This document shows positions 43,065 to 61,212 of a DNA stretch of 64,000 nucleotides, one piece after another. The notes below the pieces were generated by a model. The model was not told where the DNA came from. It saw nothing but the letters and a program-made list of their open reading frames with translations, and did no database searches. Source of the stretch: Synechococcus sp. MVIR-18-1 (GTDB taxonomy: Bacteria > Cyanobacteriota > Cyanobacteriia > PCC-6307 > Cyanobiaceae); contig NZ_CP047942.1 in NCBI RefSeq assembly GCF_014279835.1, positions 868,001 to 932,000 of the forward strand, given 5' to 3'. Positions within the stretch are counted from its first letter, which is position 1, and each line of letters begins with the position of its first letter. A program made the position numbers and the translations under genes.

Positions 43065-44099
43065 TTAATTTACCTTAACTGTATCCATTGAGTCTAAGGC
43101 TTTAGAGACACTCTTGAAATCAAAACCCATGCTCCTCAAAGCATGCCAGAAGTGGCCCTGTAGGAAGAAAAAAGCCAAGTAAAAGTGTGTATTAGCAAGC
43201 CATGCTCTTGCGGTATGCCCATTGTTTAATACAGATACTGTATCACTAAAATAGGGGGAGAATGCAAAATTGAGCTTTAAAGCCTCGCCATAGAATTCAA
43301 CTGGATAAATCGTTGTATTCTGTGCACACCATATACTTGTCACGAAGCCCATTAGCGCGATTCCTGCAAGTGAATAGGAAAGAATTGCTTCTCCAGAGTA
43401 GATGAGTATTTTCTTGAAGGGACCAAATGGACTTGTGACAATGTGCCAAACCCCACCAATGGTTAATATAAAAGCTAATACTGCATGGCCCCCTATTACG
43501 TCTTCCAAACTGCTAATGGACAGGAAATTAGTCTGATAGCCCCACACCATCCCTAGGTCAATGTTGGGTTCAACCTTGCGAACTGCGCCAATGGCAGTGT
43601 CGTAAATTCCGTGGTGCTGTGCCCATTCAACAAAAGCAATTGCACCCAGGCCTAAAAAGATGAGATGGTGCCCAAGAATAAAAGTAAGTTTCTTGGGATT
43701 ATCCCATTCAAAATGGAATTTTTCCGCTCGTCCTTCTGCCTTGGATAAATCCTTGGGAGCTCTGAGGGTGTGCCAAATACCAGCAGCTCCTAATACCGCA
43801 GAAGAGACCAAGTGAAATGCAGCTATAGCAATGTAAGGCTCTGTATTGGTGATAGTTGCATCTGCACCAAGGCCTAAGCCTAATGAAGCCAAATGAGGAA
43901 GAAGGATTAATCCTTGCTCCCCCATGGGCAGCAACGAGTCATAACGAGCCAACTCAAAGAGTGTGAATGCTCCAGCCCAAAACATGATGAGGCCTGCATG
44001 TGCTGCATGAGCAGCAATGAAAGAACCAGACCGACTCGCGACCCCTGAATTACCTGCCCACCAGTCATAACTGACTGATGGCTTCCCATAGGATTGCAT
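43065..44099 (-). CDS. Pcb/IsiA (CP43') chlorophyll-binding antenna protein
   Basis: The 344-residue six-helix protein belongs to the CP43-like antenna family. It begins MQSYGKPSVSYDWWAGNSG and continues with SFIAAHAAHAGLIMFWAGAFTLFEL and ILGHHLIFLGLGAIAFVEWA, with His residues that bind chlorophyll, and it lacks the large lumenal loop of CP43. IsiA forms rings around photosystem I under iron stress; Pcb proteins serve as constitutive antennae. Length suits either. No isiB flavodoxin follows. Its codons are AT-rich. It is divergent from the 44379 gene. Confidence 0.92.
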   Translation of the reverse strand: MQSYGKPSVSYDWWAGNSGVASRSGSFIAAHAAHAGLIMFWAGAFTLFELARYDSLLPMGEQGLILLPHLASLGLGLGADATITNTEPYIAIAAFHLVSSAVLGAAGIWHTLRAPKDLSKAEGRAEKFHFEWDNPKKLTFILGHHLIFLGLGAIAFVEWAQHHGIYDTAIGAVRKVEPNIDLGMVWGYQTNFLSISSLEDVIGGHAVLAFILTIGGVWHIVTSPFGPFKKILIYSGEAILSYSLAGIALMGFVTSIWCAQNTTIYPVEFYGEALKLNFAFSPYFSDTVSVLNNGHTARAWLANTHFYLAFFFLQGHFWHALRSMGFDFKSVSKALDSMDTVKVN

Positions 44100-45955: not shown

Positions 45956-46117
45956 CTAGAAAAGATTGGCCGTACTCACTAGTGAAGTCCATAGATGGCG
46001 TATGGCTATGTTGCCTCCAATGCCAAGTACTGCAATGAATGCTGCGAAATAAAAGAGCTGGAAATGCCCAGTTCTGTTATTGGGCATCCAGACGTCGGTT
46101 TCTAGAGCAGGTTTCAC
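45956..46117 (-). CDS. 53-residue membrane protein coupled to hli
   Basis: The start GTG overlaps the hli stop (GTGA). The frame reads MKPALETDVWMPNNRTG, then a helix FYFAAFIAVLGIGGNIAI. The strict overlap suggests co-translation and perhaps a complex with the Hli protein. No family is recognised; ATG at 46086 is an alternative start. Confidence 0.7.
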   Translation of the reverse strand: MKPALETDVWMPNNRTGHFQLFYFAAFIAVLGIGGNIAIRHLWTSLVSTANLF

Positions 46118-46251
46118 CCTAGACCTACCTGGGAAAGAATCCCCTGTCCTGTTAGGAGCTCTGTACCTAGACCAATGACGAAACCCAGCATCGCGAGGCG
46201 CCCATTCCATTGTTCTGCAAAGAATGAGAAGCCAAATTTTGAATCACTCAT
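46114..46251 (-). CDS. hli: High-light-inducible protein (single-helix chlorophyll-binding)
   Basis: The 45-residue protein contains the Hlip core FAEQWNGRLAMLGFVIG, with the Glu and Asn/Arg that ligate chlorophyll, and a C-terminal TELLTGQGILSQ. Hlips protect photosystem assembly and bind free chlorophyll. It is in one unit with the downstream 53-residue gene. A second hli copy is at 52.2 kb. Confidence 0.93.
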   Translation of the reverse strand: MSDSKFGFSFFAEQWNGRLAMLGFVIGLGTELLTGQGILSQVGLG

Positions 46252-46876
46252 CTGAGTTAAGAAATCTGAAGAAACTGTAACAGATTATTGCGCTTTCCGG
46301 CCTGTCTGTTCTTTTTCACCTTTCTTGTTGCTTCTCGCTAAGGGGCTGCTTCAAGTGATTTCCAGGAACCAGTGCGCTTGCCGCGCAAGCAATCAGTGCC
46401 CTTCCAAGCTTGCGTCCACACATATTTTGTCTGGCGGAGCGTCAAAGAGGTATTTGTTTAGGCGTGTCTTAATCGATTTTCTATGACGGGACCACTTTCT
46501 CTGCAAAATTTTTCATGCGTTTTGTTCATTGCAAGGGAATGATATTTATTTGTCGGTAATGACCAATTATGAATTCATCTGCAAAGCACTCAATCTTGCT
46601 AGACATAGGTGAATCTCCTTCAAAGCGGGTTTTCAATTGTGCTTATGGAATTGATCCAGAAATAGTTCTACTCTCTACAAATTTCTATTATTGTATGCAG
46701 CCATCTTTAATTGCTTTTGCATTCTTTTTTTAAGACACTATCGCTGTTGCCATGTTGACACCTTAAGAGTCATGCGAGAGTGAAGCCCCAGTCGTCACTA
46801 CTGCAGGGCGCTCCAGGAGATGGACGGTGTTTTAAAAACCTAACGTTTAGGCCTCTAATTCGCTTTACAATTCAAG
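46252..46876. other. Upstream region of hli copy 1, partly duplicated
   Basis: It contains no supported gene. A stretch at about 46330-46410 (GCTTGCCGCGCAAGCAATCA) resembles 52430-52500 upstream of hli copy 2, so the duplication reaches into the hli promoter regions. Confidence 0.55.
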
Positions 46877-47110
46877 GTACTGTCCCTCAACCTCGCGCGG
46901 GCTTCTAAATCGCGAAAGGTTGATGGTTGTGGGACTGTTGACCCCGTCCAAAGAGTCACCTATCTATTTTTCTCCAATAGCAGACTTCATTAGTGTGAAA
47001 AGTTCTCAATAGCTGTGACTTATGAGCGTGATGCCTGCACAAAAGCGAGGCATTCTCTCTTGCTCCCTTGACCTCTAGCACTGGGACTCTCTGAGAAAGG
47101 GAAGGTTCGG
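46877..47110. repeat. Long direct repeat with hairpin, copy 1
   Basis: About 160 bases here match 52817-52975 closely, and weaker likeness continues to about 47110. The best part forms a hairpin at about 46879-46934: GTCCC with GGGAC, TCAACCT with AGGTTGA and CGCG with CGCG, around the loop GGCTTCTAAAT. Just after it, GTTGACCCCGTCC could pair with the GGGAC arm in an alternative fold. It is not coding in any frame. A structured RNA or a regulatory element is likely. Confidence 0.75.
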
Positions 47111-47296
47111 ACCGTAAATTTGAAAGGTGGATGTCTTCTCCTTCTTCTGGGGCTATAAAGAGTCACTTTTCCCTAAGGTGTTGACTGGAGCAATCAATAC
47201 TTGACACGGAGTTGTGATTGCGGTTACGCGCCTATCTGTTTTTTGTCATAAATTGAATCTAAGACTCAAGGATAATGAATCAGTTTTGATTCTCAG

Positions 47297-47572
47297 ATGA
47301 AACCAATTAAAAGGCGTAATCAGCCTCAAGGTCATGCAAGTAATTCAATTAGCATTTTTGATAAAATATCTAGCAATCCAAGCTTTTGTCGCGATGAGTG
47401 GAAACCATCAAAAGACGAGCTTGAAGGGGAAATAAATGATGCTATTGAGTCAATAAGGTTTGCTGTTTTGAGCCTACAGCTAAAGATAAAAGCTACTGAC
47501 CAGTATGTACTCGGATTGCTAGATGTCGTGGCCGATGACTACAGAGCTCAACGGCCATCAGGGAAAAACTGA
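47297..47572 (+). CDS. 91-residue helical hypothetical protein
   Basis: The protein has a basic N-terminus (MKPIKRRNQPQG) and a helical second half (DELEGEINDAIESIRFAVLS). No family recognised. The ribosome-binding site is weak. Confidence 0.55.
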   Translation: MKPIKRRNQPQGHASNSISIFDKISSNPSFCRDEWKPSKDELEGEINDAIESIRFAVLSLQLKIKATDQYVLGLLDVVADDYRAQRPSGKN

Positions 47573-47885
47573 AGTAATGATTCTTCCATAAAGCCAGCTC
47601 TGTTTAGGTGCAACTTAATAGTAACCACCAGTCGGAATTCTTGTGGATTGTGGAGAGAGCAATCCTGCTCACTCCTTTTACTCCCTTGAAGCATATAAAT
47701 AGTTTTAGTATTTGCTATTGCTATGTGATTAGCGTATTGGAATTCTTCGCTGACCCCAGGTCACTTTTGCATTACTGGCCGAGCTTATTAATGCGGCGGT
47801 TTTGTATCAACGATGACATCTATTCGTAATTTGCAAGATGATTGATCAATTGGCATGGCTTTGAATATTTGAAACACTTTTTCCT
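47573..47885. other. Intergenic region
   Basis: No supported gene; a 73-codon plus frame at 47608 lacks coding character. Confidence 0.35.
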
Positions 47886-48650
47886 ATGATCAAAAAACTT
47901 TCCTTGGCCTTAGTTCTCATGATGCTAGGAGCATGTTCGTCGGAGTCGGATACTAAGGAATCCACAAATGATACCGCATCCCAAGAACAACTGTCCGCAG
48001 ACAGAAGTGGTGTAGAAGCCTATGAGCAAAACGACACCACCCTTTCCGGGGAGCAGAACAACAAAGAGTTTGTCAACAAACTCGACGACAAAGCTCTTGT
48101 CAGCGCTCTGAGGGATGGTGGTCATGTCATTTACCTTCGACATACTAAAACTGTTAAAGATTGGGGTGACCAGGTCAGCCCTTCACTTGATCTCTCCGAC
48201 TGCAATACCCAGCGTCGCCTGAGTACTGAAGGTAAAGCTGATGCCAAAGTGATCGGCGAAGGTATTAAGGCGGCAGGTATTCCCGTTGGAGATGTCATTT
48301 CAAGCGATTACTGCCGTGCATACAACACAGCTGATCTAGCTTTCGGCACCTACACCAAGAACTCAAAACTGAACTTCCTGCCCTGTGTTGAGTGCACTCC
48401 GGAGGGCTACAAAGAATACGCGACGCGCGTTTCTCCTTTGATGTCCGCGAAGCCTGAGTCTGGAAAAAACACGTTCTTAGTTGGACATGATGATCCTTTC
48501 CAGGGAGTGACAATGCCTGTCGTTCCAGCTGAGGGTATTTATCCCGAACCGATGGGTGTTGCCTATATTGCAAAACCCCTTGGTGATGGCAAGTTCGATC
48601 TGGTCGCCAAGATTAAGCCTAATCAGTGGCAATCGTTGGCTCAACTCTGA
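47886..48650 (+). CDS. Lipoprotein with histidine phosphatase-like domain
   Basis: The 254-residue protein has a lipoprotein signal with lipobox LGAC (Cys17). A Ser/Asp/Gln-rich linker follows, then a histidine phosphatase-like domain from residue 65. The catalytic segment reads VIYLRHTKT (Arg85-His86), with Thr in place of the usual Gly. SSDYCRAYNTADLAFG and FLVGHDDPFQG supply the remaining conserved parts. A periplasmic phosphatase is likely; the substrate is unknown. Confidence 0.82.
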   Translation: MIKKLSLALVLMMLGACSSESDTKESTNDTASQEQLSADRSGVEAYEQNDTTLSGEQNNKEFVNKLDDKALVSALRDGGHVIYLRHTKTVKDWGDQVSPSLDLSDCNTQRRLSTEGKADAKVIGEGIKAAGIPVGDVISSDYCRAYNTADLAFGTYTKNSKLNFLPCVECTPEGYKEYATRVSPLMSAKPESGKNTFLVGHDDPFQGVTMPVVPAEGIYPEPMGVAYIAKPLGDGKFDLVAKIKPNQWQSLAQL

Positions 48651-48680
48651 TCTGTCCTCTACTGCAAGTCCTTTAGAGGT

Positions 48681-48711
48681 AGCTGGCTCATTGATTGAGC
48701 CAGCTTTTTTA
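48681..48711 (+). terminator. Rho-independent terminator
   Basis: AGCTGGCTCA and TGAGCCAGCT form a perfect 10-bp stem with a 5-base loop and a T-run, 30 bases after the lipoprotein stop. Confidence 0.92.
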
Positions 48712-48799
48712 ATTCGATGAGTATCTATATCATGATTCGTGTTTGTTATTTACTGGCTTGATGCTTTGATTTATTTGAATTTCTGTTTTTGAATTGCAT

Positions 48800-49021
48800 C
48801 TAGGTGAGATCATCGTGGTTCGTAGTAGTCTTTATAGGCTTCGCTTTTTTCATGAAATCCAAGGGTATACCTCCATAAATCGTTATTATTATGGGAATGA
48901 ATACCATCCCTACGATTAGAAGGCCAATAGGCTGCTGTTGTTCATATTCCCTTGTGGCCGCATAAATAGCCAAAGTACAAACAACAGCATAAAGTGACAT
49001 TGAAGTTATGAATTTTAGCAC
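48800..49021 (-). CDS. Two-helix small membrane protein
   Basis: The 73-residue protein (GTG start at 49021; ATG at 49000 is the alternative) has helices at about 5-22 and 30-50 and a polar Lys/Thr tail. Not recognised. Confidence 0.55.
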   Translation of the reverse strand: MLKFITSMSLYAVVCTLAIYAATREYEQQQPIGLLIVGMVFIPIIITIYGGIPLDFMKKAKPIKTTTNHDDLT

Positions 49022-49710
49022 TTTGATTTATTTGTATATTTTTTACTTTAGGAAACCGTGTCGTATTTAGTGGCATTTGTCGCTACGGCTGAGACTGTCT
49101 TTGATTACCTGGCATGGTGACTAAAGAAGATCAGGCTCCGTTCTTAGTATAGTTTGGCAATAAAAAATCGGTATTAATGGTTTTCGATTCCCAGGGGCAA
49201 GATTTTCTAGCCTGATTGAGTCTAGACAAGGATAAAACCGTTTTCTATCTCTTACAAAAATAATACGCTGTAAGTTTTCTGGTGTAGTTCGTTTATCTGG
49301 TGTCTTACATCGACTCGGTCTTGGATTCGATCATGTTTCTCTAAGCAAAAAAAAGCCGCCCTGTCCAGGAGCGACTTGGTGTATGCGCCACCGTGTTGAC
49401 CAAACGGTGCCTTCTTCTATTAAAACTAAATGAGAGCCAATTGTCCCAGCGATAAGAACAATTTAATTACTCACTTGTTATGAGGGGTTGTAACTTATGC
49501 AATTCTCTCAGTTGTTGGGGAATAGATGTGATCGTGCACAAATTAGACTTGAAAAGCCTTCAGTCACAGCCTTATTACTGATTCGACGATGCTTGTCTCC
49601 GTTGTCTCCTCTGAACTGTTGGGTTTGACACCTCTCCTGTATTTGTGAGTGGGGCGTTTGTATTTATACCAATGCCAGTACGTTATGCATATAATTCACT
49701 TGTTGTGAGC
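49022..49710. other. AT-rich gap with hairpins
   Basis: No gene is supported. On the minus strand GTCGCTCCTGGACAGGGCGGC followed by eight T lies at 49349-49376 and looks like a terminator. Next to it CACCGT/ACGGTG forms a second hairpin at about 49391-49412. The nearest upstream minus-strand gene is 330 bp away, so a small RNA may end here. Confidence 0.5.
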
Positions 49711-49941
49711 TTATTGCTCCTCCTCTTCTTCTTCCATTTTCATTATTAGCTCTTTATTCTCTTCTGAATAACATGTTTTTATGAAATCTCCAGGTGTAAA
49801 GCTGTCATAGCTTTCGGCCTCGAATTCTATTTCTCCACTTTTAATCTTTTCTAATACTTCATTTGGCTCTAAGCCTGCGGGCGCTTTTACCGTGATGTGA
49901 TAGATAGTGGGAAACTTTAGCGCCCAAGAGTAAATAGACAA
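49711..49941 (-). CDS. 76-residue acidic hypothetical protein
   Basis: Starts at a TTG (MSIYSWALKFPTIYHITV). A beta-strand segment is followed by an acidic part and a Glu-rich tail (MKMEEEEEEQ). No family recognised; start uncertain. Confidence 0.5.
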   Translation of the reverse strand: MSIYSWALKFPTIYHITVKAPAGLEPNEVLEKIKSGEIEFEAESYDSFTPGDFIKTCYSEENKELIMKMEEEEEEQ

Positions 49942-50443
49942 GTTTTAAATACAGAAGATATTTTTATTTTAACTTCCTCCGCTGTTCTATTGCTCTGTCA
50001 TCTGATTCATTTGCATGTAGTTCAATTGCTTCTTCCACCCTGCCATCAGTTCATGTGGTGGCTGGTTTGGGGTTTGGGCCAGCTGAAAGTAAGAAATGTA
50101 TTCTAGATAGAGGGTGGTAGTAAGCATTCTCTTGTTTGGTTGGTTTCGACTATTTTTGTTTAATATCCTCTGAATTTTCTTGATCCTAAGCTATGGCCTT
50201 GCATTGTTTATTTGTTTCTTTTATTCGTCAGACGGATTACTTCGCTTTTGGTTTTAATTCTTGCAAGCCAAGGTTCTTTTGGAGGTGAACAGTATTTGAA
50301 AAGGATTTATTGAAGTTTGTTTTCATTCCTCTCCGATTAGGATGATCCATATTTTTCTCTGGAAATGGGCTAAAGCTTCGATTTAAATACTTTTACTGGC
50401 TTTTTACCCCTTAAAAATTTTAGAATTTTCTTTTAACCAATTT
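49942..50443. other. AT-rich intergenic region
   Basis: No coding frame or clear RNA is seen. Confidence 0.4.
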
Positions 50444-50665
50444 CTAATTTGCTTTTTTGTTTATGTGAAGGGAGTCTTGATAAATCTCTAATTCTTTTTT
50501 TGCAGTAATCCATTCGTCTAGAAGGTTAGATGTCTGGTAGTCTTTCCAGTTTATTTCGCAAGAAATGACTCGAGCATGCAATGCTCTTTCTGTTTTAGTT
50601 CTAAATCGGATAGTACCGCTATCAAGAGGGGCAATTGCAAAATAATACCAGTTTGGTGTAACCAC
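50444..50665 (-). CDS. 73-residue hypothetical protein
   Basis: Starts at a GTG with AGGAG spaced properly upstream (MVTPNWYYFAIAPL). The middle is charged (RFRTKTERALHARVI) and the end helical. Not recognised. Confidence 0.55.
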   Translation of the reverse strand: MVTPNWYYFAIAPLDSGTIRFRTKTERALHARVISCEINWKDYQTSNLLDEWITAKKELEIYQDSLHINKKAN

Positions 50666-50879
50666 AAATCTCTCCTATTCCTTCTATCAAAGCGTAGCAA
50701 GGATCTTGTTGGACTATTAAACGAAATAATCTTTCTGATTCAGTATGACAAGATGCTATTTCATTTTAGTCACAACTAATTTACTTTCTTCCCTGCCATT
50801 TGATGCATTGATATGTAAGAAAGGCTTTACTTGTTTTGTTTTTGGTATGTAATCTATTCAAATCAGGTTTTGAAAGGCT

Positions 50880-51011
50880 ATGGATTGGCGAATAATTGCT
50901 GTTTTTACGCCCATTGTGCTAGCAATCTCTTGGGCTGTCTTTAATATAGGGCGTGCGGCGTTGGGACAGCTGCAATTAGCTGTCAAGGATTTCAAGAAAA
51001 ATCAATCATGA
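50880..51011 (+). CDS. psbY: Photosystem II protein Y
   Basis: The 43-residue protein MDWRIIAVFTPIVLAISWA continues VFNIGRAALGQLQL and ends in a basic tail. The single helix with (W/G)xxxNIGRAAxGQ is the PsbY signature; PsbY sits near cytochrome b559 at the edge of photosystem II. GAAAGG lies just before the ATG. It is below most length cut-offs and easily missed. Confidence 0.82.
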   Translation: MDWRIIAVFTPIVLAISWAVFNIGRAALGQLQLAVKDFKKNQS

Positions 51012-51323
51012 TCAGCTTAGTGTGTTTCGATCCTCCAGGTTTTTAGCTTCTGTTTTATGAGCCTTTTGCTCTAAATCTTTAGTTTTATATTATTGGGTTC
51101 AGTAAGTATTGGGTTTTTGCTTATGATGGGGTGAGTTATTGCTTTTTCTTTCTTCTCTTTTGAAAAGTATTTGCTGTTGTGATTGTCTCAATTAGGCCCC
51201 GCCTCACTGTGGTTAGGATTTATTGATTTGTCAAAAGTTCTGTCAATCCCCGCGTTGGATTTGATTTAATAGCCCTTCATCTTCCTGTTCTAATATTGTT
51301 TTGAATAGAAGAATGGTGGTATC
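51012..51323. other. Intergenic region
   Basis: AT-rich; nothing recognised. Confidence 0.4.
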
Positions 51324-51509
51324 TTAGATGAAGTAATAAGTTTCTATTACTTCTAACTCGTCGTCAACGAGCTCTATGGCTATTAAGCTCATTTCATTCT
51401 GCCTTGATATTAAATCAGCCCAGGCTGTCTTTGCTAGTTCAAGCGTTTCATAAGTTCCAGAACTGTTTTCTTCTTCTACATCGCATTGAAAAATTTGATA
51501 GGGAGGCAT
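51324..51509 (-). CDS. 61-residue hypothetical protein
   Basis: The frame MPPYQIFQCDVEEENS has a GGGAGG-like site near the ATG on the other side (in reverse CTCCC is absent, so the site is weak). A beta-alpha-beta layout (LAKTAWADLISRQNEM, IAIELVDDELEVIETY) suggests a small soluble protein. Unknown. Confidence 0.5.
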   Translation of the reverse strand: MPPYQIFQCDVEEENSSGTYETLELAKTAWADLISRQNEMSLIAIELVDDELEVIETYYFI

Positions 51510-51719
51510 GTTCAGTTTTTTTGGAGTTTTTTAGGCTTTTTTGGGCTTTTTGATCTGTTTTCGTTAGAGTGATTCTAAGTCTTGCTGCTATCTATCGGTT
51601 AGTGCATAAATGCCTATCACTCTATCTCCTGTCATCTATTACTTGAGAATGTTGTATTGGTTAATAGTCTCAGATTGCTTAGCCTCCATGATTGAGATGT
51701 ATTGTTATTTTCTTCCCTA

Positions 51720-51890
51720 ATGGTTTCTTTGTTTATCGAAGCATGGCCTGTTGAACTAACTTATGGAGACAATCAAGTTTTGGTTTTGGGAACATGGGTT
51801 TTTATGCTTACAACGTGTATGGCTCTACTGCTTGGTGCGATTTCAATGTTTGAAGAGGATATTCCTGAACCGGGTAGAAGGAACAAGTGA
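51720..51890 (+). CDS. 56-residue small membrane protein
   Basis: From the ATG at 51720: MVSLFIEAWPVELTYGDNQ then a helix VLVLGTWVFMLTTCMALLLG and a charged tail. One or two membrane segments. Not recognised. Confidence 0.55.
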   Translation: MVSLFIEAWPVELTYGDNQVLVLGTWVFMLTTCMALLLGAISMFEEDIPEPGRRNK

Positions 51891-52120
51891 AGTTATTATT
51901 GCCTAGCTAGATAGCGCAAGAGGCCACAAATATTTCTTTATAACTATCGATCCTCATGGATGCCGACTGTTTAATGTAGATAAACTCCTCCGATAGAGCA
52001 CAGGGTTTTACTCAATAATATGTTTCTTTCTTGAGGCATATAGGGTTTTATGGATAACAGTAGTGAATCTGAAGTGAGGCATATGTCATGATCTTGGTTT
52101 CCAGTTCATAAAATCTACAC

Positions 52121-52152
52121 AAAAAAAGAGCTGGATATATCCAACTCTTTTT
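52121..52152. terminator. Terminator after hli copy 2
   Basis: The near-palindrome GAGCTGGATATATCCAACTC is flanked by an A-run and a T-run, and works in both directions. It lies 35 bases past the hli copy 2 stop. Confidence 0.88.
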
Positions 52153-52186
52153 TATTCTTGGCTAGATCTTAGGTAGCTAGTCGGCT

Positions 52187-52324
52187 TCAACCGAGACTGA
52201 TTTGAGAAATAATGCCTCGACCAGTCAGAAGTTCCGTACTGAGGCCTTTCACGAAGCCCATCATTGCAAGCCTCCCGTTCCACTGCTCAGCGAAGGATGA
52301 GAAACCAAATCTCGATTTCCTAAT
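52187..52324 (-). CDS. hli: High-light-inducible protein copy 2, non-standard start
   Basis: The 45-residue frame contains FAEQWNGRLAMMGFVKG and TELLTGRGIISQ, colinear and of the same length as the 46.1-kb copy. At the position of the first Met the codon is ATT, not ATG, and no ATG, GTG or TTG lies between the in-frame stop (52331-52333) and the core. It either uses a rare ATT start or is no longer translated. No coupled small gene follows as in copy 1. Confidence 0.75.
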   Translation of the reverse strand: MRKSRFGFSSFAEQWNGRLAMMGFVKGLSTELLTGRGIISQISLG

Positions 52325-52816
52325 TTGAGTTTAAAATTTTAAGGTATCTTAAGTTTGTTGCGCACCATGCGGCTTAGGCATGTTTCTTTCCTGTTATTTC
52401 AATAGTAGATGCCCGCTTGTTTGTTCCTCTCGCGAAAGGTCAGCTTCAAATGGTTGTCAAGGAAAGAGTGCTCTTGCTGTGCAAGCAATCAGTAACATTC
52501 CAATTTTTCATTCCAATGTCTTTTTTTGGGAAATCATTTATGCCCCCCTGAACCTTTCTGACATTGCGGTTTTTCAGTTGCTCCCATGGAATTCCTCCAA
52601 AATAATTTTGATATATCCCAAGTTCGTCACGGTGTATTCAGCTATCTTGAATTATTAGTGTTTTTCTTGTTCAAGAAGAGTTACCTTTGATGCTTTGATG
52701 AAGCCTGACAGAGATGAATCAGGCAAGCCCCAGCAGTATTCCTAGAGTGGCAGTCTTTCACCTTGATAGGGTTTTAATATCGTACCGTTTTGGTCTTTAC
52801 CTCGTTGCATCAAAAA
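52325..52816. other. Upstream region of hli copy 2
   Basis: Parts (about 52430-52500) resemble 46330-46410 upstream of hli copy 1. A 92-codon plus-strand frame here is a by-product of the repeat and is not supported. Confidence 0.5.
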
Positions 52817-53050
52817 AGTAATGTCCCTCAACCTTTCGCGGGCTTCTAAATCGCGAAAGTTTGATGTCTGTGGGACTGTTGACCCCGTCCAAAGAGTCAC
52901 CTATCTATTTTGTCTCATAACAGACTTGGTTCGTGCAAAAAGCTCTCATGAGCTGTGACTTATGACTACAATCACTAAGCCAATATGTGCACTCTTTCTC
53001 TTTTTTCTTTGCCCTTTAGTGCTGAGACTCTCTACGGAATGCGAGGCCTT
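52817..53050. repeat. Long direct repeat with hairpin, copy 2
   Basis: Second copy of the 46877-47110 element. The hairpin spans about 52819-52873: GTCCC/GGGAC and TCAACCTTTCGCG with CGCGAAAGTTTGA, one mismatch, loop GGCTTCTAAAT. The mismatch pattern differs between copies while the stem is kept. On the minus strand the hairpin is followed by ATTACTTTTTT, which could terminate. Confidence 0.75.
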
Positions 53051-53103
53051 ATACCTTTTATATAAAAGTAAGGCACTTCATCAATCCAACTGGACTAGAT
53101 AAT

Positions 53104-53699
53104 GCCTCATCAGCTACATCGTTCTGTGCTTTATGACCTAAGCGGACATGAGCAACTTTGGTTCGACCAAGTAAGAAGTTGTTTGTTGTATCTACGCAAC
53201 ATGCTTCGAAGAAGCCACTCCCTCACTGAGTGGGTTTTTGATGCCAACTCTCATGTGTCATTCCAACTGTGCAGCTAACGCCTCATTAGCAACACCTTTA
53301 AGTCAATTGAGCCTGGTCGGCCTGTGCTTTATGGCTTGGGCGGACACGAGCAACTTGGTTTGACTTAGTGAGCAGTTGACGGGTATGCCTATCGAGGAGA
53401 CACAGCAGATTTCTTACTTCCCATCCAACTGACTATTGGATGATGACGCAACGTTCAAGCGGAGCCGCTTCTGTCCAGGGGGTGGCTTTTTTATTGCCTT
53501 CTGTCGTGGGTCAATCCAACTGTCCAGCTAACGCCTCATCAGCAACATCGTTCTGTGCTTAATGCCTTTAGTGCAAGGCCCTTGCTTGATTTGACTGAGT
53601 GAGTCGTTGATGGAGGAAGAGTTCTTTATTCGGTTTTGGATTAAACAGTTCGTTCCTGTAAGCCACCCATTGGCGTAGGTTGTTTTTTTATGCCTTATT
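53104..53699. repeat. Array of long repeat units (block 1, three units)
   Basis: Units begin at about 53104, 53280 and 53533 with GCCTCAT(C/T)AGC(A/T)ACA. The conserved core is TGTGCTTTATGxC, GCGGACA(C/T)GAGCAACTT and TTTGAC, followed by a variable part. Most units end in a GC-rich hairpin with T-run (for example GCCACTC/GAGTGG near 53211) and the linker TCATTCCAACTGT or similar. The layout of core, variable insert and terminator suggests repeated small-RNA genes. Unit 3 is the most diverged and leads into a decayed DUF3104 gene. Confidence 0.7.
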
Positions 53700-53913
53700 T
53701 TATGGGATTCCGTGAGTAACTGTATCGCCTTCTACCCAGGCGATTTCTGCGTTGTCAACGTTGGCGATCTGGAACATGGTGTTCACCCTCGGGTCTCTCG
53801 CTCCGCCTTCAAACCAGATGACCTGCCCCATGAATCAGTCGCCGTTGCCCTTCTGAGCCACCTGCTGTTGAGTCTGAACAATCACGATCTTGCCTGGACG
53901 AACTGAAACTCAT
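53700..53913 (-). pseudogene. DUF3104-type gene, broken by a stop codon
   Basis: On the minus strand the frame gives RPGKIVIVQTQQQVAQKGNGD, then TGA, then FMGQVIWFEGGARDPRVN and TMFQIANVDNAEIAWVEG. The intact relative at 61 kb has Trp (TGG) at the stop (53835-53837). The 5' end is also out of frame, with a TGA before VSVRPG. DUF3104 proteins are small picocyanobacterial proteins of unknown function. Confidence 0.78.
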
Positions 53914-60061: not shown

Positions 60062-60087
60062 AACACTGCCGTCGGGTGGTGTTTTTT
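60062..60087 (+). terminator. Terminator
   Basis: AACACTGCC pairs with GGGTGGTGTT (two G-U pairs), followed by T-run, 40 bases after the membrane protein stop. Its T-run runs into the array linker TTATTGCCTTCTGTCATGG. Confidence 0.75.
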
Positions 60088-60414
60088 ATTGCCTTCTGTC
60101 ATGGATCAATCCATCTGGTCTAGCTAATGCCTCATCGGCAACACCATTCTGTGCTTTATGACCTGAGCGGACATGAGCAACTTGGTTTGACTGAGCAAGA
60201 AGTTGTTTGTTGTGTCAACGCAACATCCCTTCGAAGAAGCCACTCCCTCACTGAGTGGCTTTTTTGATGCCTTCTGTCATGGGTCATTCCAACTGTTCAT
60301 CTAACGCCTCATCAGCAACACCTTTAAGTCAAATGAGCCTGGTCGGACTGTGCTTTATGGCTTGAGCGGACACGAGCAACTTGGTTTGAATTGGAAGGTA
60401 AATGTCATCGAGAG

Positions 60415-60522
60415 ATGTCCATGCCACCTGGTGACCCGATTCCACTTTCCGTATGGCTGGCCTGCCTCTCGATTGGAGTGGGGCTGGGCGGAACGTTAAT
60501 GCAATTCTTGATGACGGGTTAA
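60415..60522 (+). CDS. 35-residue single-helix protein
   Basis: MSMPPGDPIPLSVWLACLSI continues GVGLGGTLMQFLMTG. One membrane helix; codon use looks core-like. It sits inside the repeat array. Too short to assign. Confidence 0.5.
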   Translation: MSMPPGDPIPLSVWLACLSIGVGLGGTLMQFLMTG

Positions 60523-60686
60523 GCGCTGGCTGTACACAGCTAAAACAAAATAGTAACCAAATCTTTTCAAAGAACTTTGCGTTCTTGGCAGCGAAGACTC
60601 GATATCAGTAGTAGTCGTTTCATTGAGCCAGTTTGCCTTGTAAGTTTTACTTAAATGATCTTCAATTTAATTAACTAAGCAACCAG

Positions 60687-60710
60687 CTAACTAACTAACT
60701 AACTAACTAA
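60687..60710. repeat. (CTAA)6 tetranucleotide tract
   Basis: Six perfect CTAA copies. With a 4-base period it gives stop codons in all reading frames on both strands. Confidence 0.9.
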
Positions 60711-60940
60711 TTCATGACTCATCAGCAACACCTTCTAGTCAAATCAGCTTGGCCTGACTGTGCTTTATGTCTTGAGCGGACACGAGCAACTTGGTTTGAC
60801 TTATAGGGCAGATGTAGGGGATGCCTATCGAGGAGACACAGCAGATTTCTTCCTTCCCATCCAACTGACTATTGGATGACGACTCAAACACTTGCAGTGA
60901 GCCGCTTCTGTCCAGGGGGTGGCTTTTTTTATGCCTTCTT

Positions 60941-61212
60941 TTATGGGAGTACGTGAGTGACTGCATCACCGTTTACCCAGGTGATCTCCCCGCTATCAAC
61001 GTTGGCTACCTGAAACATGGTGTCACCCTTGGGTCTCTCGCTCCGCCTTCACACCAGATGACCTGCCCCATGAACCAGTCGCCGTTGCTCTTCTGAGCCA
61101 CCTGCTGTTGAGCTTGGACAATCACGAGGTTGCCTGGACTCACTGACAGGAAGGCAGGTGGTGGAGTGTTGGCCAGTGGTGAGGGTGCTGACGTTGGATG
61201 ATCTGTGCTCAT
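60941..61212 (-). pseudogene. DUF3104 gene with a frameshift
   Basis: The minus strand starts MSTDHPTSAPSPLANT and reads FLSVSPGNLVIVQAQQQ, GDWFMGQVIWCEGGARDPRV. Then a one-base loss near 61022 shifts the frame; the other frame continues NTMFQVANVDSGEITWVNG and ends THVLP. The 53.7-kb copy has the missing base. Without repair the product is 68 residues instead of about 90. Confidence 0.8.

Follow-up and report, generated by a model that had tools for sequence, protein, structure and literature searches.

The window analysed here, a stretch of 64,000 nucleotides (nt) of Synechococcus sp. MVIR-18-1 (contig NZ_CP047942.1, positions 868,001 to 932,000), carries two copies of an element, RNA-A, which represents a real and conserved family of structured small RNAs, placed on the minus strand by comparative evidence. 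In the reading we favour, RNA-A is a small RNA of ~90 nt, composed of a 5' seed element and a terminator-like hairpin and likely acting in trans, while the wider genomic links of the family are with isiA/pcb and flavodoxin, known iron-stress genes. Marine Synechococcus are thought to rely on few protein regulators when iron or light changes. An RNA family that holds its position ~450 nt ahead of isiA/pcb across seven genomes, and that also precedes flavodoxin genes, would add to the iron response of a major ocean primary producer a layer of RNA control that can be tested directly, possibly with a paired antisense partner. In window positions the copies are:

46870..46959, minus strand: RNA-A copy 1, 5' core GUGACUCUUUGGACGGGGUCAACA followed by hairpin P2; both ends predicted, the 3' end approximate
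46931-46935 with 46882-46886 (P2a) and 46911-46923 with 46887-46899 (P2b), minus strand: hairpin P2 of copy 1, loop of 11 nt
52811..52900, minus strand: RNA-A copy 2, laid out as copy 1, its hairpin followed by the U-rich tail AUUACUUUUUUG; both ends predicted

The original prediction, which had described two closely matching copies of a ~160-base hairpin element, located both copies correctly. A blastn search of its own genome (G000, 2.45 Mb) with positions 46860-47110 returned the query itself at 100% and a second match of 88% identity over query positions 15-166 (E 1.3e-47), aligning 46874-47025 with 52815-52965; a third copy was not found by blastn in this genome, the nine remaining matches being just 14-17 nt long with E of at least 1.86. 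The similarity does extend over ~150 nt, but the hairpin occupies just the first ~55 nt and is followed by a ~24-nt core and then, in the minus-strand reading, by the promoter region. Each copy folds, as proposed, into 5 + 13 pairs around the loop GGCTTCTAAAT (plus strand) or AUUUAGAAGCC (minus strand), and the reported stem changes were likewise recovered, with C-G in copy 1 versus A-G in copy 2 and a T-C mismatch in copy 1 versus T-A in copy 2. Among the relatives with the element, those that bear a name are marine Synechococcus.

Throughout the family the layout is constant, with a 5' core of ~24 nt, P2a (5 pairs), a bulge of 5-8 nt on the 5' side, P2b (13 pairs) and a loop of 6-12 nt, whereby P2a' comes after P2b' with 0-1 nt between them. 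The motif GGACGGG recurs in 38 of the 42 cores; the commonest 14-nt core form is CCUUGGACGGGAUC (14/42), and the form of the window, CUUUGGACGGGGUC, occurs in 10/42. Since sequence-only MAFFT alignments missed the structure, hairpins were placed by geometry and by model. Model R3, built from 13 sequences of genus g5 and none of the window's genus, matches both window copies (46881-46959, minus strand, E 1.1e-4; 52821-52900, minus strand, E 3.9e-4; 460 kb searched). In alignment A7, which comprises 55 R3 matches, 45 of them distinct, 89.6% of 843 cells are paired versus 66.5% upon shuffling and at most 54.0% in slid controls, 19 of 20 pairs vary on both sides, and the covariation score of 0.612 compares with 0.247 for shuffled (0 of 500 reach the observed value) and at most 0.191 for slid versions. 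The separate geometry-based hairpin placement agrees with this covariation, and the structured RNA suggested from the window is thus borne out by 45 distinct sequences and an independent placement. A second pairing that had been considered, of GTTGACCCCGTCC with GGGAC, involves bases that are nearly invariant in alignment A1, so that covariation cannot test it; the core is read here as a separate 5' element.

The same hairpins assign the RNA to a strand. Their placement used a strand-neutral, geometry-based score that treats G-U and A-C alike; 51 hairpins were placed, 43 of them unique and 42 kept, with one decayed copy left out and two truncated ones not placeable. Read on the minus strand, the 756 pair cells of the 42 hairpins consist of 640 Watson-Crick, 89 G-U, 10 A-C and 17 other combinations, with G-U in excess in 35 sequences and A-C in 2, and some stem pairs in A1 read C-A on the plus strand, which corresponds to G-U on the minus strand. 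It follows that the RNA lies on the minus strand, the same as hli and pcb, a direction which is clear over the family, although the p-values of the strand test (about 1e-8 and 7e-8) are overstated because the sequences are kin. Folding energy is lower for the minus strand in 42 of 49 cases and for the plus strand in 6, and as both window copies are among these 6, with slightly lower energies on the plus strand, the window alone points to the opposite direction. Over the family, the 89 G-U against 10 A-C cells speak against the plus strand, and no consistent plus-strand -10 box was seen by eye in the locus listing; the plus-strand riboregulator that had originally been folded is very unlikely. 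The plus strand had at first been taken as the RNA in this analysis too, with TACAAT at 46866-46871 as its -10 box, and was dropped after the G-U/A-C test.

On the minus strand, RNA-A is preceded by candidate promoter elements:

46966..46971, minus strand: -10 box of copy 1, AAAAAT
52907..52912, minus strand: -10 box of copy 2, CAAAAT
46992..47020, minus strand: conserved promoter region upstream of copy 1, containing two half-sites of CAC type (by eye)
~52932-52960, minus strand: its counterpart in copy 2 (by eye)

In 37 of 50 loci, a fixed position ahead of the core holds a -10 match of at least four of six positions, including A2 and T6, compared with 0-9 at 13 shifted places; the box ends 4-7 nt before the core, and the upstream half-sites are, by eye, ~22 base pairs apart. 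The loosest form, NANNNT, is found in 50/50 loci at the site, yet also in 2-37/50 at control places, and was for this reason not used. An own promoter, a mark of cyanobacterial trans-acting small RNAs, is thus suggested by the fixed -10 box. At the other end, the 12 nt past P2 have a U fraction of 0.442 versus 0.267 (standard deviation 0.019). In the seven pcb-linked loci P2 leads straight into a U tract, and pcb possesses a conserved region of its own closer to the gene than RNA-A, which together fit a separate short RNA. Each copy would accordingly be a stand-alone minus-strand RNA of ~90 nt with its own promoter. A small stem (GUC...GAC) formed by the 5' core would expose the loop CUUUGGACGGGGUC in the window and most commonly CCUUGGACGGGAUC in relatives, and the 18-pair hairpin with its 5-8-nt bulge, often followed by U-rich sequence, probably ends transcription. 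The core would then pair with target RNAs in trans during iron or light stress; transcript ends, action in trans and iron or light control are what we infer beyond the conserved features.

The distribution of RNA-A was assessed by searches of increasing reach. At the DNA level, 6 of 60 relatives including the own genome gave matches, G020 having five. Model R1, derived from 14 close sequences, matched in 15 of 300 genomes of the family, including distant relatives with a wholly changed hairpin and the same core. Model R2 reached 75 of 400 family genomes at E<=0.05 and R3 54 of 400 at E<=0.01, both lists containing false positives such as the GAPDH gene; among these 400 genomes, no R3 match was listed in the small-genome genera g41 and g79. 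Among the sequences inspected, RNA-A was accepted in 30 of the 400, nine from the window's genus, 20 from genus g5 and one from g49. From 66 hits 13 were excluded and 53 kept, the former being GAPDH-like sequences in G163, G177 and G100, the weak R2 match in G339, a genome of these small-genome genera, which was rejected, a hit in G312, conserved presumed-coding sequence in G019:C9, G023, G027, G000:704970 and G020:708464, and three second-motif pieces in G005 and G345. Weak R3 matches in G002, G012, G014, G025, G029, G101, G121, G134, G141, G186, G196, G221, G242, G247, G267, G275, G294, G318, G323, G329 and G338 and at two further places in G327 are not counted among the accepted. G023 and some rows of the window's genus probably represent a related element, A', described below.

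Beyond the family, a class-wide search gave matches in 8 of 242 genomes, two of which, G550 and G486, lie outside it; the G550 match requires a 39-nt insert and was judged to be chance. Phage records contained no match to the plus-strand DNA of the element. Among viral contigs there were 29 pattern matches, with the best model scores for L329 (25.5 bits, E 2.6e-5) and L355 (23.3 bits, E 1.2e-4), which were taken as chance because they had been selected by the same core pattern, show no P2-like fold and lie inside long open frames.

The neighbourhood was surveyed for 51 placements, with the first ATG, GTG or TTG of a frame as gene start. On the same strand, pcb/isiA starts 424-467 nt downstream of RNA-A in six genomes and at 455 nt in a seventh, G250, and flavodoxin starts 450-958 nt downstream of seven copies in six genomes (NF006738 for one). 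A Crp-type helix-turn-helix protein (one tested), which could be a regulator of IdiB type, is encoded on the same strand 0.5-0.9 kb upstream of six of the seven flavodoxin-linked copies. A protein of NF004841 type adjoins RNA-A in eight genomes and ends 113 nt before it in six; in other genomes, relatives of the window's protein immediately precede RNA-A at pcb-linked loci. In the window, the corresponding genes and those of hli type are:

43065..44099, minus strand: pcb/isiA-type chlorophyll-binding protein (TIGR03041, E 1.2e-153), 2.9 kb downstream of copy 1
46114..46251, minus strand: hli gene, 45 amino acids, ~0.7 kb downstream of the start of RNA-A copy 1 on the same strand
47886..48650, plus strand: NCBIfam NF004841 protein, named hypothetical, with a weak histidine-phosphatase match below the Pfam cut-off
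52187..52330 (approximate), minus strand: second hli, start codon absent, probable pseudogene

The name hli is our assumption from sequence recognition only, and the 45-amino-acid protein has no match in Pfam or NCBIfam. The placement of the element upstream of both hli genes, on which a riboregulator of the high-light response had been proposed, holds in that hli lies downstream on the same minus strand, but it reduces to one duplicated locus. A diverged duplication aligns 46625-47105 with 52566-53046 at 69% and 46035-46428 with 52108-52524 at 65%, and this ~1-kb segment carries both RNA-A copies together with hli, the RNA part being better preserved than its flanks. As both copies lie inside one duplication, the two hli neighbourhoods are not independent and the link counts once; moreover, the second hli frame has no ATG, GTG or TTG ahead of its conserved part, so that 'both hli genes' are one gene and one relic. 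Among the 53 hits kept, only 6, including a decayed copy, have an hli-like gene behind RNA-A on its own strand at a distance of up to 1.4 kb. The high-light role is a guess, and the iron link is a pattern of neighbourhood. By eye, a hairpin of the type GCTTGC...GCAAGC before hli is kept in both duplicates (~46370-46400 and ~52470-52500, minus strand).

Behind P2, 27 of 50 loci carry a stretch of at least 7 nt complementary to the core, module B; a complement of at least 8 nt, 52-85 nt behind P2, is present in 22 of 42 unique loci versus 1.3% of shuffled sequences. A strict minus-strand terminator comes next in 17 of these 22 loci and is found within the searched stretch in 19 of the 42, including five flavodoxin-linked ones, compared with 6 of 252 random windows. 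Right before module B, a TATAA-type box occurs in 18 of 27 loci versus 4 of 27 in a control window, which suggests an own transcription start. Two readings of module B are possible: it may supply the 3' strand that closes a helix, or it may form the 5' end of another short RNA. Within the window it persists in decayed form at copy 1:

46820..46827, minus strand: module B remnant CCGUCCA, 7 nt, complementary to the RNA-A core, with TAGGTT ahead at 46837-46842
46783..46813, minus strand: degenerate terminator-like stem of module B, GCGCCC...GGGGCUU (by eye)

Strict searches found no terminator at this stem, and copy 2 has no core-complementary match of at least 7 nt. Tentatively, the arrangement may be a two-gene RNA switch, in which RNA-A with its seed loop would be followed immediately, on the same strand, by an RNA-B of ~50 nt that has a TATAA-type box and a terminator to itself. 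The start of RNA-B would be at (A)UCCCGUCC, and its first 7-14 nt would be the exact seed complement, whereby RNA-B would act as a sponge of RNA-A or the reverse. Several copies of such a switch would lie near genes of the iron-stress and light-stress responses, and the decay of RNA-B at the window copies would leave RNA-A unchecked. Two tandem cassettes of RNA-A and module B occur in L243 (G345:C2:109277-110600); in both, the seed has a perfect complement of 14 nt and a terminator is present.

Several observations weigh against RNA-A as a separate trans-acting small RNA. It was accepted in just 9 of 31 genomes of the window's own genus, and the exact 14-nt core CCUUGGACGGGAUC is limited to the 14 of 42 sequences given above. 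Neither window copy yielded a promoter in a strict sigma-70 scan, UUUU occurs within 22 nt of P2 in just 13 of 50 tails, and the tail of copy 1 is not U-rich. As to the structure, A7 was fitted to that of R3 and includes a few partial matches, its first P2b pair is open in 21 sequences and the third pair of the core stem in 10, 10 of the 42 hairpins are near-identical to the window type, kinship inflating the p-values, and RNAalifold on the sequence alignment A4 did not recover P2 but only a different small core stem of 4 pairs. No target of RNA-A was found, GAPDH having been the sole candidate examined and no genome-wide target search having been made. The GAPDH messenger RNA is complementary in 22 of 24 nt in G163 (L387, G163:C31:310586-310641, coding sequence), a genome which has no accepted RNA-A, and the best matches of 13-16 in seven RNA-A genomes tested are at chance level (shuffled maxima 17-18); the complementarity was judged a coincidence.

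Two alternatives retain RNA-A as a minus-strand structure and differ in what it belongs to. It could be a cis-acting 5' leader, similar to an attenuator or riboswitch, of isiA/pcb, flavodoxin and hli mRNAs, with transcription stopping at P2 or the terminator or reading on into the gene; the same-strand position upstream of pcb and flavodoxin and the strict terminators of 19 of the 42 loci, five of them flavodoxin-linked, speak for such a leader. The distances to flavodoxin and hli are, however, variable, pcb has its own conserved region nearer the gene, and ~35 of the 51 placements lack both pcb and flavodoxin in the 1 kb that follows, which makes a leader unlikely. Similarly improbable is one longer RNA of ~170-200 nt, in which the 5' core would pair with the downstream CCCGUCCAAGG of module B and close the molecule before the terminator. 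The spacing of the complement and the terminators that follow it in 17 of 22 loci agree with this, but the TATAA-type box before module B suggests a separate start, and module B is absent from 23 of 50 loci and decayed in the window.

Other explanations question the nature of the element itself. A mobile or recombination element of the small inverted-repeat type would likewise be multi-copy and form a hairpin, and one copy in the window derives from a segmental duplication; compensatory changes, the fixed -10 box and the kept order before pcb in seven genomes render this highly improbable. The first identification of RNA-A was as copies of Yfr103; it was given up once 1.2 Mb of G258, which we take to be CC9605, had been compared with itself and a DNA search made. 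G258 carries another non-coding family at seven clear loci plus one weak 40-nt match, in line with the description of Yfr103, and RNA-A in just one to two copies rather than seven. Yfr103 is reported to be the most abundant non-coding RNA in MIT9313, to have seven paralogs of 290-328 nt in CC9605 and to display an imperfect palindrome between -29 and -58 relative to its mapped start (PMC5069720). It resembles RNA-A as a non-coding RNA present in several copies per genome in marine picocyanobacteria, among them marine Synechococcus (PMC5069720). The Yfr103-like family, identified by copy number and length and not by Yfr103 coordinates, differs from RNA-A in sequence and loci, and an identity of the two is scarcely conceivable. 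Yfr103-like copies exist in the window's genome outside the window, at G000:C1:722099, 1404899, 1752633 and 1890754.

No Rfam family (release 15) reached its gathering cut-off for RNA-A in the window and 18 relatives' loci, and a relaxed threshold gave one miRNA match (E 0.4), far below its cut-off. A description of RNA-A was not found in the literature searched on Yfr103 and on non-coding RNAs of hli, isiA and isiB, where it may well figure as an unnamed start site in supplements; among the matches listed for the core letters, no paper concerned cyanobacteria. Yfr1 and Yfr2 (Cyano-1, RF01701) resemble RNA-A in being short RNAs that combine a terminator stem with an exposed, conserved motif (PMC2518516), but the motif is different, and Rfam gives no match at RNA-A in the window and the 18 loci scanned. 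IsrR (RF01419) is, in its Rfam description, an RNA regulator of isiA and lies in the same region, but as an antisense RNA inside pcb (43535-43706, plus strand), whereas RNA-A is a separate upstream locus. Such an IsrR-type antisense RNA is located opposite pcb also in L248, L317, L318 and L319.

The related A' element is recognized by TTCCTTGGACGGGATC, an exact 16-mer in 9 of 31 genomes of the genus, for instance at G000:C1:1407061-1407076 (plus strand, locus L323), where the commonest RNA-A core form is present letter for letter and leads into a terminator-like stem, ~380 nt from a Cyano-1/Yfr2 RNA; this recurrence of the core speaks for the favoured reading of RNA-A. Several A' loci have direct repeats before and a terminator after the element, repeats which we liken to the HLR1 motif through which RpaB presumably controls PsrR1. 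The likeness of A' (G000:1407061) to PsrR1 lies in these HLR1-like repeats; Rfam calls no PsrR1 there, and the repeats upstream of RNA-A itself differ.

Apart from these elements, the window contains clusters of tandem intergenic repeats of ~170-250 nt at 53097-53700 and ~60074-60947, the first with plus-strand intrinsic terminators. In a search of seven genomes, matches beyond short ones were obtained only in the own genome, and the clusters are possibly a lineage-specific array of small RNAs.

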